Source: Lewinellaceae bacterium (GTDB lineage Bacteria; Bacteroidota; Bacteroidia; Chitinophagales; Saprospiraceae). From it: a stretch of DNA of 37,004 nucleotides. The notes beneath the pieces are model-generated. The model made no database searches and was not told where the DNA came from. It saw nothing but the letters and a program-made list of their open reading frames with translations. The stretch covers positions 1 through 37,004 of the forward strand of contig JAHEAU010000008.1 of the NCBI GenBank assembly GCA_024642625.1, given 5' to 3'. Below are positions 16,847 to 23,280 of the stretch, piece by piece; position 1 is the stretch's first letter; every line of letters begins with the position of its first letter. Position numbers and translations under genes: made by a program.

Positions 16847-19060
16847 TTAAATCGAATATCGAATACCCAGATAAACCCGAGTGCCAATCACAGGCGCATA
16901 CACACGGGAAGCATCAAAATGTTCACTGTTTGGATTTTGCCATTCGACAATCGGATAAGGCTGGGTTTTATTTCCCAGATTTTCGCCCCCTAAATAGATG
17001 TCCAGGTTCCCTCTTGTCCAGGAGACCTGTGCATTGAACAGAGCGTATTCGGGTGAATTTTGAGGAGAGTTGATAATGACATCGGGTGGAAATCCATTAT
17101 GACTCGGAAGACGCATGGAACCAATACCCTGTCCGGTGATATTAAAACGCCACACTTTATTTGGAGTTATATAATCCACTGTGGTCAGGAGTCGATGTAA
17201 TGGCACCATCGGCAAGGCCTCCAAATTTCCCTGATAGGTGGTTTTTACATCATTATACTTCCAGGCAATTTTGACTTCGAGACCCCTGACAACTTCCATA
17301 TTTAACATAGCCAACAGACTGTTTGAATATGATTTTCCATCCAGATTATACAGTTGAATTACTGTGTGCTGTGACTCCATATCCATAACCACCTGATTGG
17401 TGAACCGGGTGTGAAATGCATCCAGGACCAGGCTCCAGACACGGGTTCCTACCACAATACTTTTGGTCAGATTAGCTCCAACTACCCAGGCATCTTCAGG
17501 TCGAAGTTGTTCATTGATCTGCAACTTCCAGTTGTTGAACAACATGGATTGCCAGTCGGGGGGGAAATTTGGATTTCGCCAACCTCGACCAGCTGAAATT
17601 CGAATCACAGTCTGGGCGTCCAGATTCAATCGTGCATTCAACCTGGGCGTCACAAACCAACCAAATCGCTGGTGATAATCTGCCCTTACTCCCAAAATGA
17701 TTCCTGCACGATTCTTCAGTGAAAAACTGGTCTTTTCTATTGATTGATCCGACCCATAACTGTATTGTGCAAACACGCCCGTTACTTGATCTTTCCGATC
17801 AAAGGAAGTGCCATACAGATTCTCCTGAATATCATCCGTCTGATGACTGATACCTGCAGAATACGTGTTGCTCGGTGATTTACCTTCCAGGTTGTACAAC
17901 AAATTGAGATAGGCCCCTCGCTGGTCACCAGTATGGTCTCTTAACCCATAACGCCCGCGATAAGAATGTGTGTATCCATTATAAATGAACCCCAAACTTT
18001 GGTACCGGTCTCCTTGAAAAACAATACCGTTTTTACCAAATACTTCAAGTCGGTCATTATCCTGTTTTATTCGCCATGGATTGGTTACAGACGAAAGCTG
18101 GCCACCTTCCTGGCGGTGTTGAATAGCGTGGACATTAAATTGTCCCCCCACCTGGCCAATCTGGTAGAACATTCGATACATCCCATTCAGCTGACTGCGT
18201 TTTGGTATATCCAGAAATTGATCATCATTTCCATCCCATTCCTGTTGTTGTCCGCTGGCATGGAGCAATAACCCGGTGCTCAGGCTAGGCTTCCACACTT
18301 TATTGAGATGCATGTTGGCTTCTATTCTGCCCAGAGAATTGCCAAACAGATTGATAAAAAACGGGCGATCGGTTTGGGGCTTGACCAACTCGGTGTTTAT
18401 CTGGCCCGTGATACTCTGTGCACCATTGGCTACGGAGCTTGCGCCCTTGGAAATCTGGATTGACTCCACCCAGGTACCCGGAATATAATCGAGTGCAAAT
18501 GGCTGGGCCAATCCATTTAATGTGGGTCTGTTTTCGACCATCAATTGGGTATAAATACCGCGCAGCCCTAATAGCTGTACTTCCGATCCTCCAGTGATAG
18601 CATTGGTCATGCCGACATCTACTGAAGCATTTGTCTCGAAGCTTTCGGCGAGATTGCAACAGGCCGCCTTTTTCAATTCATTTGAAGAGATCGTTTCAAC
18701 ATATCGCGTACCCAGCGTAGAGATATAATTTCCTTTTTCTTCTTCTGTTACCTCAATCGTTTGCAAGGTGGCTACACCACTCAGAGTGATATACAAATCC
18801 TGGTCCGCAGGTGTAATGTCCAATTGGAATGGTTCGTAACCGACGTATTGGATCATTAACGTACCGACCCCTGCTTGTCGAGGTATTACAAAGGCACCGT
18901 TCATGTCTGTCAGTACACCGGTTGTCGTTCCTTCCCAGGACACAGTGGCCCCGATCAGAAACTCATCCTCCTCATTGACCACATACCCCTGTAGGTCGGC
19001 TGTTTGAGCCAAGACAAGAGTGGTACTGAAAAGGGTTAGAATATTGATTATCCATTTCAT
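16847..19060 (-). CDS. TonB-dependent receptor with Cys-Cys plug motif, probable metal-linked
   Basis: A 737-residue outer-membrane receptor from the ATG at 19060, which begins a clean signal peptide (MKWIINILTLFSTTLVLAQ). A carboxypeptidase regulatory-like domain covers about 22-97 (LQGYVVNEEDEFLIGATVSW, TDMNGAFVIP). The plug holds AACCNLAESFETN with Cys134 and Cys135, followed by VDVGMTNAITGGSEVQLLGLRG. This paired-cysteine plug marks a receptor subtype that I recall from Bacteroidota copper or heavy-metal loci; that link is memory-based. The barrel ends GIRYSI. The small Cys-rich exported protein upstream (stop 64 nt before this ATG) fits a two-gene metal-handling unit. A longer frame to 19102 lacks a good signal at its start. 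Confidence 0.92.
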   Translation of the reverse strand: MKWIINILTLFSTTLVLAQTADLQGYVVNEEDEFLIGATVSWEGTTTGVLTDMNGAFVIPRQAGVGTLMIQYVGYEPFQLDITPADQDLYITLSGVATLQTIEVTEEEKGNYISTLGTRYVETISSNELKKAACCNLAESFETNASVDVGMTNAITGGSEVQLLGLRGIYTQLMVENRPTLNGLAQPFALDYIPGTWVESIQISKGASSVANGAQSITGQINTELVKPQTDRPFFINLFGNSLGRIEANMHLNKVWKPSLSTGLLLHASGQQQEWDGNDDQFLDIPKRSQLNGMYRMFYQIGQVGGQFNVHAIQHRQEGGQLSSVTNPWRIKQDNDRLEVFGKNGIVFQGDRYQSLGFIYNGYTHSYRGRYGLRDHTGDQRGAYLNLLYNLEGKSPSNTYSAGISHQTDDIQENLYGTSFDRKDQVTGVFAQYSYGSDQSIEKTSFSLKNRAGIILGVRADYHQRFGWFVTPRLNARLNLDAQTVIRISAGRGWRNPNFPPDWQSMLFNNWKLQINEQLRPEDAWVVGANLTKSIVVGTRVWSLVLDAFHTRFTNQVVMDMESQHTVIQLYNLDGKSYSNSLLAMLNMEVVRGLEVKIAWKYNDVKTTYQGNLEALPMVPLHRLLTTVDYITPNKVWRFNITGQGIGSMRLPSHNGFPPDVIINSPQNSPEYALFNAQVSWTRGNLDIYLGGENLGNKTQPYPIVEWQNPNSEHFDASRVYAPVIGTRVYLGIRYSI

Positions 19061-19124
19061 CGTCAAATCGTTCTTGTGAAAAAAATCGATTGCCATGCCC
19101 AAACATGGGCATCAGAATCAATCT

Positions 19125-19662: not shown

Positions 19663-20241
19663 TCAAAGCTTGTATAGTGTAGCTTGCTGAAAGACATTTA
19701 AGCCGTACCAATTAACAATTGGAGTTTGCTCCAGTGGCGCTTCCCCTTCCTGAGGTCCACCTGTTTCGGTCGTATCCATTGATCCTGCCAATATTTCAAA
19801 ATGAAGGACTTCTCCCCGAAGTTCATATCGTGCCAACAAAAGCTGTCCACCGACAGAGAATCGGGATACAAATACAGGGCCGAGAACACGGGCTCCCAAG
19901 ACAATCCCATTGTGTTCATCGATCAGCCATTCTCCTTTATCAGGTTGGGCTGTCAACAAATCATATGCCCGACGATCTTCCTTTTCACCGGGATTGTAGA
20001 TCAAGGTCCAGGACCAGGAGATGCTATCCAAAGGATGAATCTCCAATTGCATCGGGACATTACGCGCTGCTACACCCGGAAAGTGTATTTGGAGCGTGCC
20101 CGCCCAGTCTCCCTCCCAGGTCAGCGGAAAATCGCTGGTATCCTTATGAACAGTTGACCAATCTTGCGACCAGGCTGTACCTGACATACAGCATGAAAGG
20201 GACAGGATAAGTAAGACATTTAACCATTTGGCTTGACTCAT
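19663..20241 (-). CDS. Exported protein of unknown function
   Basis: A 192-residue protein from the ATG at 20241 (a longer frame starts at 20253). The N-terminus MSQAKWLNVLLILSLSCCMSG is a signal peptide; the likely cleavage is at AWS before Q. The cysteines do not form a clean lipobox. The mature protein reads as a small beta barrel: WEGDWAGTLQIHFPG opening, then alternating strands such as MQLEIHPLDSISWSWTLIY, LIDEHNGIVLGARVLG and GGQLLLARYELRGEVLHFEI. The pattern of W-x-G-x-W-x-G opening plus regular strands suggests a lipocalin- or calycin-like fold, but I cannot name a family. It is divergent from the M1 peptidase gene; the two starts are 33 nt apart. It lies 73 nt before the Cys-rich protein and might be cotranscribed with it. 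Confidence 0.75.
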   Translation of the reverse strand: MSQAKWLNVLLILSLSCCMSGTAWSQDWSTVHKDTSDFPLTWEGDWAGTLQIHFPGVAARNVPMQLEIHPLDSISWSWTLIYNPGEKEDRRAYDLLTAQPDKGEWLIDEHNGIVLGARVLGPVFVSRFSVGGQLLLARYELRGEVLHFEILAGSMDTTETGGPQEGEAPLEQTPIVNWYGLNVFQQATLYKL

Positions 20242-20256
20242 GAATCCGTACATTTA
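20227..20256 (+). promoter_or_regulatory. Putative promoter for the M1 peptidase
   Basis: TTTG (20227-20230), 18 nt, TACATTTA (20249-20256), then 18 nt to the ATG at 20275. It deviates from TAnnTTTG only at the last base. It overlaps the start codon of the divergent gene at 20241. Confidence 0.45.
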
Positions 20257-20274: not shown

Positions 20275-23200
20275 ATGAAAGTACTCTTTTCGTCTTGCAT
20301 CCCATTTCTGATACTGACTTTGGTTCTCTTCAATCAGCTGAGTGCGCAAGTTCCAGAGACTATTCCTGCTCAGATTTTCCATTTGGATGCCCTCCTCGAT
20401 CCAGGCAGTGGTTCACTTGATGTGGAATATGACCTTGAGTATCTGAATAATTCAACTGATACACTTTATCAACTCGTATTTCATATTTGGGCAAATGCCT
20501 TTTCCAAACCCGGTTCAGCTTATGGCCAGCAAAAACTGTTATTCAAGGAGACCGAATTCTATTTCATGGATCCGGATGATCGAATCAGTTATCGATTCCT
20601 TCAATTTTCGTCAGGAGCTGATTTTATAACGTATGAACAGGTTGGAACAGATCCGGATATTATCAGGGTCAACTTGAAAGATCCTCTTTTACCCGGTGCA
20701 AAGTCGAAGGTTCATGCCGATTATCGGTTGGCAATACCGGGTTTTCATTCACGCTTGGGTACAGATGGAAAGATCTGGCAACTTGCACATTGGTTTCCAA
20801 AACCCGCACGATATGTTGATCATCAATGGAAGATGATCCCTTATCTCGAACTGGGTGAATTCATTCAGGATTTTGCAAACTATCAGATCAGCCTGACTTT
20901 ACCTGACAGCTTTGTCGTTGTTTCGACTGGCGCACCTGTGGATGAGGCCACAAAATCACATCGGGAAACGGCGCTAAGCCGGACAAAAAGCGGTCTTCGG
21001 GGATTGCCTGCTGATGGAGGTCGGAGAACATGGACGTTCAATGCTGATTGGGTGCCGGATGTTGCACTTGCCTGTTCACCCTATTATTTCCTGGAAGAAG
21101 AGATGTTCCCCCTCCAGGATGGACGAATTGTAACAGGGCAAACAGCATATACGATCAACCGAAAAGGAGGGTGGAAAGAAGATGCTTTGAGCTACGTCCG
21201 TCAGTCCACCCAATTTTACGATCAACACGTAGGTCCTTATCCATGGCCTTATGTTTCCGCAGTGCAGGGAGTGAAGCAATTTTCCGGCGGCATGGAATAC
21301 CCGATGATCACTTACATCCAGCCTGGATTGCCTCCCTCCGCCTTGGATGAAGTCATCGCCCATGAGATTGGACACAACTGGTTCTTTGGTGTCCTATCTA
21401 CCAATGAGCGCGATTATCCCTGGATGGATGAAGGGTTGAATTCTTATTACGATCATCGGTACTCGGTATCACGTCGAACAAATCAATCTCTTGATTTGCC
21501 ACTGGACGCTGAGGATTGGCTGGTCTATGGAGAAGCTGGAAAACGTCTGTTGCCTATCCCATCAGAAGGCATTCAGCATATGTATTCGGAAATCGACTAT
21601 CAGGTTGGAGCATATACCATTCCTTCCCAGGCGCTCCGCGTTCTGGAGATGCTCTATGGTCAGGAGGCTGTCGATCAGGCATTTCAGGCCTATTACCAAA
21701 AGTGGGCTTTCGGTCATCCGTTACCAGGCGATCTACAACGTGTATTTGAAGATGAATTGAAAGCCAAACTCGATTGGCTGTTTGTCGAAGCGCTTTCCAA
21801 ACCGTTTGTAAGGGATCTGTCATTTGGAGCCGTCCAGCAAGCAGACCAAGTCTATCGGATCACCATCAAGCAGTCGGGTCTCAAAGGCGCTCCCTGGGCG
21901 TTGCAACAGCGGCAAGACTTAAGGAATCAGACGAATTGGTATCCTGGTTTTTACGGTAATGACACGACTGTTCTTGTACAAGTAGATCCGGCCATAACTT
22001 CCTTGTCTGTTCACGGAGGTGTCCCCGATCTACATCCAGCAAATGATCAATTTCGGATCCATGGGTGGCCCCATCGAAAATCTGGTTGGGAGATTGGAAT
22101 TGGTGCAGGTATAAAGAATGCAACAGCTTATAAAACATATCTCCTACCTATTCTGGGCCTGAATGTATATGATGGCTTTCAACTCGGTCTGGCACTCCAC
22201 AATCAAAAGGTCTATTACCAACCATCCGGCTTTTTTCTAGGTGGACTTTATGGATTTAAATCGGAACACTTGGGATATTCCGCCGCTGCATATCAGGATA
22301 TTTATCTGGATGGTGGCCCAGATTTGATTCGTCTTGGCATAAAAGCAAGATCTAACAGCTTTTTTACATTCAATGAATTATCTCTCGACTATCACCGATT
22401 CAATCCCTACATCGAATGGCAAAGCAGGGCAGAGATCAGACCCGGCGAAACACATTGGCGAGTCGGTTTATACGGATGGTTGATCGGTCGACAGTCCCTT
22501 GATTTTAATCAAAACGGATACTCAATCTCAAATCAACGGGATTGGGATCGCATCTATTCGATGAGGTCCTCGATCACCCGAGCTGATGCACTTCTCCCCT
22601 GGTCAATCCGTGTTGATGCTGAATATCAACCCTATACATCTCCACAGGTAAAGGAGGCCTATTTAAAGACCGGTATCGAACTGAAATTGGCAAGTCAATT
22701 CATGCATAAACGCTTTGTACAATTCAGAGTATTTGTTGGTGGATTCCCATACAATACCCGCAGAAATGCAGGGAATGTTTCCAATCCGTACACCCGAGGC
22801 AGTTATGCGCTAAGTTTTCAAGGAGAGAATGATTATCGATTTGAAGAACCTTTTTTTGGACGTTCAGAACAAACTGGTTTTTCAAGTCAACAGATTTTCA
22901 TTCGGGAAGGCGGATTTAAAACAGCCTTGGGGCCAGCATTCGGACAAGGACAAAGCAATCATCTGATCTCGGCGATCAATGTTCGTAGTGACTTGCCATT
23001 AACGATCAACATGCCCATTCAGATCTATTCCGATCTGGGCTATTGGTCTGATCGGACATACCTCGGCACAAGTAAATCTTTTGCTGATCAGGTTTGGTGG
23101 GATATGGGTTTACAAATCAGTTTATTGGACGATCGGCTGCAAGTCTTCTTCCCTGTTTTCCAAAATAAAAATCTGAATTCATTATTGGAGCAACGAAGTC

Positions 23201-23280
23201 CTTCCTACTGGAGCAGAATAACCTGGTCAATCAATCTCAACCTGATTCAATTACCGTGGGATATCCCCTCCTTGTTCTAG
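20275..23280 (+). CDS. M1 family metallopeptidase with C-terminal outer-membrane-barrel-like region
   Basis: A 1001-residue exported protein. Residues 1-25 are a signal peptide (FLILTLVLFNQLSAQ). An M1 aminopeptidase-like N-terminal beta domain is followed by the catalytic gluzincin core: GGMEYP at 338-343 (normally GAMEN), the zinc site HEIGH at 363-367 and the third ligand Glu386 in WMDEGLNSYYD, with the canonical 18-residue gap. A helical segment covers about 400-590. From about 600 to the end, the sequence changes to amphipathic beta strands rich in Gly, Tyr, Phe and Trp (GWEIGIGAGIKNATAY, FQLGLALHNQ, GLYGFKSEHLGYSAAAY) and ends in Phe (WDIPSLF), as integral outer-membrane barrels do. I infer a periplasmic or surface peptidase anchored by its own barrel. 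Substrates are unknown. Confidence 0.9.
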   Translation: MKVLFSSCIPFLILTLVLFNQLSAQVPETIPAQIFHLDALLDPGSGSLDVEYDLEYLNNSTDTLYQLVFHIWANAFSKPGSAYGQQKLLFKETEFYFMDPDDRISYRFLQFSSGADFITYEQVGTDPDIIRVNLKDPLLPGAKSKVHADYRLAIPGFHSRLGTDGKIWQLAHWFPKPARYVDHQWKMIPYLELGEFIQDFANYQISLTLPDSFVVVSTGAPVDEATKSHRETALSRTKSGLRGLPADGGRRTWTFNADWVPDVALACSPYYFLEEEMFPLQDGRIVTGQTAYTINRKGGWKEDALSYVRQSTQFYDQHVGPYPWPYVSAVQGVKQFSGGMEYPMITYIQPGLPPSALDEVIAHEIGHNWFFGVLSTNERDYPWMDEGLNSYYDHRYSVSRRTNQSLDLPLDAEDWLVYGEAGKRLLPIPSEGIQHMYSEIDYQVGAYTIPSQALRVLEMLYGQEAVDQAFQAYYQKWAFGHPLPGDLQRVFEDELKAKLDWLFVEALSKPFVRDLSFGAVQQADQVYRITIKQSGLKGAPWALQQRQDLRNQTNWYPGFYGNDTTVLVQVDPAITSLSVHGGVPDLHPANDQFRIHGWPHRKSGWEIGIGAGIKNATAYKTYLLPILGLNVYDGFQLGLALHNQKVYYQPSGFFLGGLYGFKSEHLGYSAAAYQDIYLDGGPDLIRLGIKARSNSFFTFNELSLDYHRFNPYIEWQSRAEIRPGETHWRVGLYGWLIGRQSLDFNQNGYSISNQRDWDRIYSMRSSITRADALLPWSIRVDAEYQPYTSPQVKEAYLKTGIELKLASQFMHKRFVQFRVFVGGFPYNTRRNAGNVSNPYTRGSYALSFQGENDYRFEEPFFGRSEQTGFSSQQIFIREGGFKTALGPAFGQGQSNHLISAINVRSDLPLTINMPIQIYSDLGYWSDRTYLGTSKSFADQVWWDMGLQISLLDDRLQVFFPVFQNKNLNSLLEQRSPSYWSRITWSINLNLIQLPWDIPSLF

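Follow-up and report, generated by a model that had tools for sequence, protein, structure and literature searches.

In PlpD and the other patatin-Omp85 (type Vd) proteins, an N-terminal enzyme and a C-terminal 16-strand barrel of the Omp85 type are joined in one exported chain. The Omp85 proteins characterised so far serve to insert or export other proteins, and PlpD with its phospholipase is presented as the exception, its enzyme domain being reported as periplasmic (PMC11116518). Here we describe a fusion protein of related layout, encoded on the forward strand of a 37,004-nucleotide stretch (the window) of contig JAHEAU010000008.1 from a Lewinellaceae bacterium (assembly GCA_024642625.1), in which an M1 peptidase is followed by a predicted outer-membrane barrel. 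Instead of the patatin-like phospholipase and the POTRA domain that precede the barrel of PlpD, this protein has an M1 peptidase and no POTRA domain. A first reading of the DNA without database searches (the sequence-only reading) had likened its layout to type Vd, which holds for the presence of an enzyme and a barrel on one chain but not for the POTRA domain; moreover, the enzyme export that the term 'type Vd' implies is at odds with the periplasmic enzyme domain now reported for PlpD (PMC11116518).

Two further systems resemble the fusion protein. Heinz and Lithgow (2014) distinguished ten Omp85/TpsB subfamilies, one of which was named 'Omp85-metalloproteases' and carries PF00149 (PMC4104836). 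As in the fusion protein, the barrel of this 'Metallo' subfamily stands behind an N-terminal metal-dependent domain, which its authors call a metalloprotease; however, PF00149 is the calcineurin-like phosphoesterase in Pfam, and the domain was reported to be conserved at the genus level only (PMC4104836). The subfamily is set apart from M1 by its accession, M1 members being possible, and no word starting with 'peptidase' occurs in the available part of that text (PMC4104836). The arginine-specific AaaA of Pseudomonas aeruginosa is, as we propose for the fusion protein, an aminopeptidase anchored through a barrel of its own in the outer membrane; it is an autotransporter that stays at the cell surface and aids growth on peptides, unlike the periplasmic placement that we favour for the fusion protein (PMC3426542). 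No description of an M1-barrel fusion was found in the titles and abstracts of the open-licence literature among the matches listed. In the parts available, the OMPdb paper uses 'peptidase' once only, for signal peptidase (PMC9581022), and a survey of 76 outer-membrane families does not use the word (PMC4827864). A link to the subunits of the barrel assembly machinery (BAM) named in Bacteroidota, BamG, BamH, BamM and BamP (PMC12611786), was considered and rejected, 'peptidase' and 'metalloprotease' occurring 0 times in the available text of PMC12611786 and PMC12578637. An enzyme and an Omp85-like barrel on one chain are already known as a combination; here the enzyme is a different one, the POTRA domain is missing and the loop-6 signature is altered.

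Computation bears out that a single chain combines an N-terminus of the export type, an M1 zinc site that is intact and a C-terminal beta-barrel. Conservation was counted in several sets of relatives. Set A1 holds the window protein and 29 relatives retrieved with the whole protein (30 rows). Set A2 holds 73 sequences fetched by the patterns HEVGHNW and GMEYP[MN][IV]T, the fetch having returned 80 loci, of which 72 entered the set and 8 were left out (3 lacked a usable ATG, 2 ran past a contig end and 3 contained X). The class set joins the window protein to the 30 best loci found by the barrel profile alone (31 rows), which are best matches and not a random draw. Zinc-site counts in A2 are partly circular because this set was retrieved with M1 motif patterns, and M1 motif counts in A3, a further set from a pattern-based fetch, are partly circular likewise. 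The features of the gene are as follows.

20275..23280, plus strand: whole gene, M1 peptidase and Omp85-like barrel (1001 amino acids, ATG start, stop included).
20275..20346, plus strand: probable signal peptide, residues 1-24 (judged from the sequence; the model has a helix at 2-23).
20365..21792, plus strand: M1 domains I and II, residues 31-506 (Pfam match 316-503; fold matches from residue 30 or 31).
21289..21303, plus strand: GMEYP, residues 339-343 (aligned to GMENP of leukotriene A4 hydrolase; 31/31 in the class set).
21361..21375, plus strand: HEIGH zinc motif, residues 363-367 (conserved in A1 and the class set).
21430..21432, plus strand: E386, third zinc ligand (conserved in A1 and the class set).
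21613..21615, plus strand: Y447, which we take to be the probable catalytic tyrosine (invariant in A1; 31/31 in the class set).
21817..22002, plus strand: all-beta domain, residues 515-576, read as a putative M1 domain III (predicted secondary structure; M1 fold alignment length).
22129..23232, plus strand: predicted 16-strand Omp85-like barrel, residues 619-986 (two structure predictions; two fold searches).
22756..22962, plus strand: residues 828-896, a long loop joining strands 11 and 12 in the position of Omp85 loop 6 (both models).
22861..22863, plus strand: R863, invariant loop arginine (73/73 in A2; 31/31 in the class set).
23026..23040, plus strand: YSDLG of strand 13, residues 918-922, where Omp85 proteins have (F/G)xDxG (D920 65/73 in A2, 29/31 in the class set).
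23107..23109, plus strand: G945, on strand 14 (73/73 in A2; 31/31 in the class set).

The N-terminus is a hydrophobic stretch with the end LSA-Q, and the A1 relatives start alike, which by reading of the sequence agrees with the signal peptide proposed earlier on the same chain. The proposal of complete gluzincin residues (H363, H367 and E386) is borne out as well, these being invariant together with E364 and Y447 in A1 (30/30 rows) and in the class set (31/31), while H363, E364, H367 and E386 are also present in 73/73 sequences of A2. An HExxH motif with a glutamate 19 residues past the second histidine, as defines M1 enzymes, is formed by H363, E364, H367 and E386. Peptidase_M1 (PF01433; residues 316-503, E 1.7e-8, 34.7 bits against a cut-off of 27.7) was the sole Pfam match above cut-off in the fusion protein, and NCBIfam gave no model above cut-off for it. 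Since Pfam and NCBIfam show M1 at most, annotation would list as a soluble enzyme what is probably a protein of the outer membrane. In GMEYP the glutamate of the leukotriene A4 hydrolase motif is retained and the asparagine of the GxMEN exopeptidase motif is replaced by tyrosine; the roles of these residues, as that of Y447, are the ones that we presume them to have.

The full-length structure prediction (A2 alignment, 73 rows) had a predicted local distance difference test score (pLDDT) of 87.8 and a predicted template modelling score (pTM) of 0.85, with the helices of the catalytic domain running to about residue 506. This predicted model matched the M1 fold of tricorn factor F3 (1z1w) with Z 32.0 and a root-mean-square deviation of 3.0 over 466 aligned residues, and that of the two-domain M1 enzyme of D. 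radiodurans (6ifg) with Z 30.5 over 394. Alignments to M1 chains of three or four domains were longer than that to the two-domain 6ifg, which fits an assignment of residues 515-576 to M1 domain III, and residues 31-576 are predicted to fold like M1 domains I-III. In the usual naming of M1 domains, domain IV of the long enzymes is helical; according to the model, the barrel would occupy its position. Tricorn factor F3, aminopeptidase N and the two-domain enzyme of D. radiodurans share the M1 fold and zinc motif with the fusion protein but are soluble or otherwise anchored and have no outer-membrane barrel. The genome of the window also holds a second M1 gene (L002, G000:C208:2445-3773), a frame of 624 amino acids that is 30% identical over query residues 54-503 and has no match to the barrel part.

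Because full-length fold searches were filled by M1 chains and uninformative on the barrel, the barrel was predicted and searched alone. The prediction for residues 588-1001 had a pLDDT of 90.0 and a pTM of 0.89 and contained 16 long strands, the first at 619-630 and the last at 983-986, with a short strand at 605-609 left uncounted. The strand count called for by the sequence-only reading thus stands at 16 in the model, as opposed to the 12 strands of a type Va barrel. AaaA has such a classical 12-strand barrel and belongs to another peptidase family. Placing the barrel at residues 590-1001 was right insofar as a barrel was predicted there twice, but its proper extent is 619-986, and the all-beta domain as well as a linker of 42 residues (577-618 in the full-length model) precede it. 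The phenylalanine at the chain end, earlier counted as a barrel feature, is found at the end of only 20/73 A2 sequences, and the last strand stops at residue 986. For residues 590-1001, neither model showed a soluble beta-sandwich or a normal M1 C-terminal domain; both were rejected, and a peptidase with its own outer-membrane barrel is backed by the structure predictions together with the fold searches.

Searching the barrel model against the PDB with Foldseek gave TamA (8us3, E 4.7e-9) as the best match, and the best 50 of 92 matches (E up to 0.001) were all TamA, BamA/BAM, SAM or CdiB entries. The best 50 matches of VIA-align (Z 15.4-18.2) were of the TamA, BamA, SAM and CdiB kinds, one of them, 5ayw, being titled only 'Structure of a membrane complex', and in 9co2 residues 425-806 of BamA aligned over model residues 35-399, from the first to the last strand. 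Porins and autotransporters were not among the best 50 matches of either search (459/996 chains had Z of at least 8). The TM-scores of the fold matches were modest (0.35-0.47 by query length) and identities were 6-15%. A hydropathy alternation scan (0.74 in the barrel part, 0.66 in the M1 part) was uninformative, and the barrel profile found only a chance match among PDB sequences (best E 1.3).

At the sequence level the relation to Omp85 is weaker. Work on FhaC described two motifs, (V/I)RG(Y/F) at the loop-6 tip and (F/G)xDxG on strand 13, with an Arg-Asp salt bridge between them, and a strand-14 glycine in TamA and BamA (PMC4490367). The segment IREGGFKTALGP, earlier suggested to play the part of the loop-6 motif, does sit in the corresponding loop, but the canonical (V/I)RG(Y/F) was found within loop 828-896 in 0/73 A2 sequences, whereas a loose loop-6 motif was present in the last 450 residues of 30/31 Omp85 sequences of the same bacterial family. 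Nor is R877 of IREGGFKTALGP the conserved arginine, as it is Arg in 22/73 sequences only; the invariant one is R863, 16 residues before G879, preceded mostly by glycine (47/73). On strand 13, (F/G)xDxG was present strictly in 15/73 A2 sequences, in 46/73 when tyrosine was allowed, as in the YSDLG of the window, and in 59/73 when alanine or serine was also accepted for glycine. A family comparison by profile, proposed in the sequence-only reading, was negative for the Pfam Omp85 model (PF01103), which matched 0/73 A2 members at E up to 0.1. By hhalign, the barrel was aligned with all Omp85 proteins of the same bacterial family at E 4.9e-4 (probability 32%), with the TamL/TamA-like subset at 0.0042 and with the BamA-like subset at 0.12, the latter no better than the reversed control; reversed templates gave 0.066-0.5, and the lowest E from 20 column shuffles each was 0.37 (Omp85) and 0.30 (DUF5686). 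Given a sequence link that is weak overall and lacking in the case of the BamA subset, the Omp85 link rests on fold. As the POTRA domain, the loop-6 motif and the Pfam Omp85 match are all missing, we describe the predicted barrel as Omp85-like without counting it among the Omp85 members.

These results bear on a first alternative, namely that the barrel is of another Bacteroidota type, perhaps nearer to DUF5686 (PF18939), and that its strand number and long loop between strands 11 and 12 are convergent. DUF5686 showed a remote profile likeness to strands 1-3 of the barrel (hhalign E 6.5e-6, probability 85%, 75 columns) that was better than that of Omp85, which together with the missing loop-6 motif and the modest TM-scores speaks for such an origin; with the last part of the barrel only, E was 0.0073 for Omp85 and 0.078 for DUF5686. 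The Pfam DUF5686 model found 2/73 A2 members with a best E of 0.031, not above cut-off, and DUF5686 proteins, unlike the fusion protein, have no peptidase. On the other hand, all listed fold matches were of the Omp85 type and spanned the barrel from first to last strand, and R863, D920 and G945 are conserved at the signature places described for FhaC, TamA and BamA (PMC4490367), so that we regard a non-Omp85 barrel as doubtful, although it is the most serious of the alternatives. Of 30 DUF5686 proteins (L114-L143), 8/30 had [FYG]xDxG within their last 250 residues and 2/30 had an RG motif like that of loop 6 within their last 450.

The taxonomic survey suggested by the sequence-only reading was run and gave barrel-profile matches with E no higher than 0.001 in 212/295 genomes of the class, a few of these matches being weak; the peptidase was present in all of the 30 best barrel-profile loci. 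Within the order, 196/198 genomes had some M1 match to the fusion protein, barrel-free paralogues included. In a sample of the phylum the barrel profile matched 56/296 genomes, and the 50 matches with E under 1e-60 all came from genomes of the same class, eight other rows having E 8.9e-6 or weaker. Frames of 927-1055 amino acids contained 48/50 of the strong matches, their M1 content being inferred from length save where sequences were read; of the other two, one was a frame of 445 amino acids (G454) and one a copy with a TAG codon inside it (G017). Among the named carriers are Saprospira grandis Lewin, Portibacter marinus, Hymenobacter daecheongensis and Rufibacter glacialis. The wide distribution of the pair within the class indicates that the fusion is old and stable and not a local accident. 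The G017 copy (G017:C45:59411-62388), from the same family, is a homologous stretch over two frames with internal TAG codons, either a broken gene or an assembly error. In G101:C66, G130:C7 and G171:C5, M1 frames of 524-573 amino acids adjoin matching frames of 921-967 amino acids, apparently a short M1 gene and a long one in tandem.

By analogy with PlpD and from the models, we favour, with a confidence just above even, a metallo-aminopeptidase of the M1 family that faces the periplasm and trims peptides and that is fixed in the outer membrane by its barrel, a mount rather than an insertase. The protein would be exported by virtue of its N-terminus and, as its fold suggests, the C-terminal 16-stranded Omp85-like barrel would insert in the outer membrane. 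M1 domains I-III would then lie on the N-terminal, periplasmic side, as do the POTRA domains of Omp85 proteins and, as reported, the patatin domain of PlpD. Most likely the enzyme would trim peptides on the inner side of the outer membrane, be it for nutrition or to clear away fragments, and the barrel would provide its location and perhaps a gate instead of inserting proteins. In the models the loops after strands 11, 13 and 15 have 69, 14 and 19 residues; that these three longest loops lie behind odd strands is what a periplasmic N-terminus would lead one to expect. If this holds, the protein would be a second case of an enzyme on an Omp85-type barrel, the barrel would have come to carry an enzyme on more than one occasion, and barrels of this type would be put to wider use than thought.

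Several observations weigh against this placement or against parts of it. The loops after strands 1, 3, 5, 7 and 9 have 2-5 residues and those after even strands 2-9, mostly longer, with 6-9 for the early even ones; because the first five odd loops are short, only the last third of the barrel gives the orientation, and the 42-residue linker could allow export of the enzyme. POTRA domains are absent, residues 507-618 being all beta in the model except for a helix turn at 588-591, and the canonical loop-6 motif is absent from A2. Aminopeptidase activity is not certain, because the exopeptidase motif has tyrosine for asparagine. Finally, no conserved operon was found among 81 loci (80 and the window, many with short flanks), and the neighbourhood gives no pointer to a role.

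The linker is also what speaks for surface display, in which the barrel would export its own N-terminal peptidase and external peptides would be digested at the cell surface, as in the original type Vd proposal: about 42 residues precede the first long strand, and AaaA is a precedent for a surface-tethered aminopeptidase autotransporter that aids growth on peptides (PMC3426542). However, PlpD, the nearest layout, is reported to keep its enzyme domain in the periplasm (PMC11116518), and no autotransporter barrels were among the best 50 Foldseek matches, an absence that is no test. We consider surface display, the main rival to the periplasmic placement, unlikely. To about the same low degree we entertain that, in much of this class of Bacteroidota, the POTRA-less barrel has replaced domain IV as a lid-gated pore coupled to an enzyme, which would be one more architecture on the Omp85 fold, admitting peptides from outside and handing them to the active-site chamber; it is just as tentative that this chamber would open onto the periplasmic mouth of the barrel, with the arginine-bearing loop as the lid.

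A role in outer-membrane assembly or quality control, in which the barrel would act on other proteins as Omp85 proteins do and the peptidase would clear failed or trimmed ones, could draw on the TamA/BamA/Sam50 fold of the barrel and on the invariant loop-6 arginine, which could form a lid lock with the strand-13 aspartate. M1 enzymes are mostly exopeptidases, ill-suited to folded or long clients, and the missing POTRA domain, the missing canonical loop-6 motif and a distribution that is not universal within the class further argue against this role, rendering it quite improbable. That a soluble or disordered C-terminal domain was wrongly closed into a barrel by the predictor is hardly credible given two high-confidence predictions and listed matches that are solved outer-membrane barrels, even if the only Pfam match above cut-off lies in the M1 domain and hydropathy alternation is barely above that of the M1 part.

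In the window, the fusion gene is followed downstream by genes for an MscS-type channel, an RlmI-like methyltransferase and an OmpH-like protein. On its upstream side, in divergent orientation, lie genes for proteins of 196 and 154 amino acids and for a TonB-plug/carboxypeptidase-regulatory-like protein, the last of which (16847-19102, minus strand, 751 amino acids) has CarbopepD_reg_2 and TonB plug domains. The nearest neighbour is the following.

19663..20253, minus strand: small divergent neighbour, 196 amino acids, no match in Pfam (relatives close to the fusion gene at 14/81 loci).

This protein has a signal-like N-terminus, and a gap of 21 bases separates its gene from the fusion gene; its relatives lie upstream on the opposite strand, the 14 loci including the window. 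A thioredoxin-like cluster was found at 20/81 loci, with 16 copies upstream on the same strand, and, these two and the PF00149 cluster apart, each cluster was present at 9/81 loci or fewer. A PF00149 phosphoesterase of about 250 amino acids was encoded downstream on the same strand at 18/81 loci (L081:5450-6199 and 17 others); the published 'Metallo' Omp85 subfamily likewise has PF00149 as its domain.

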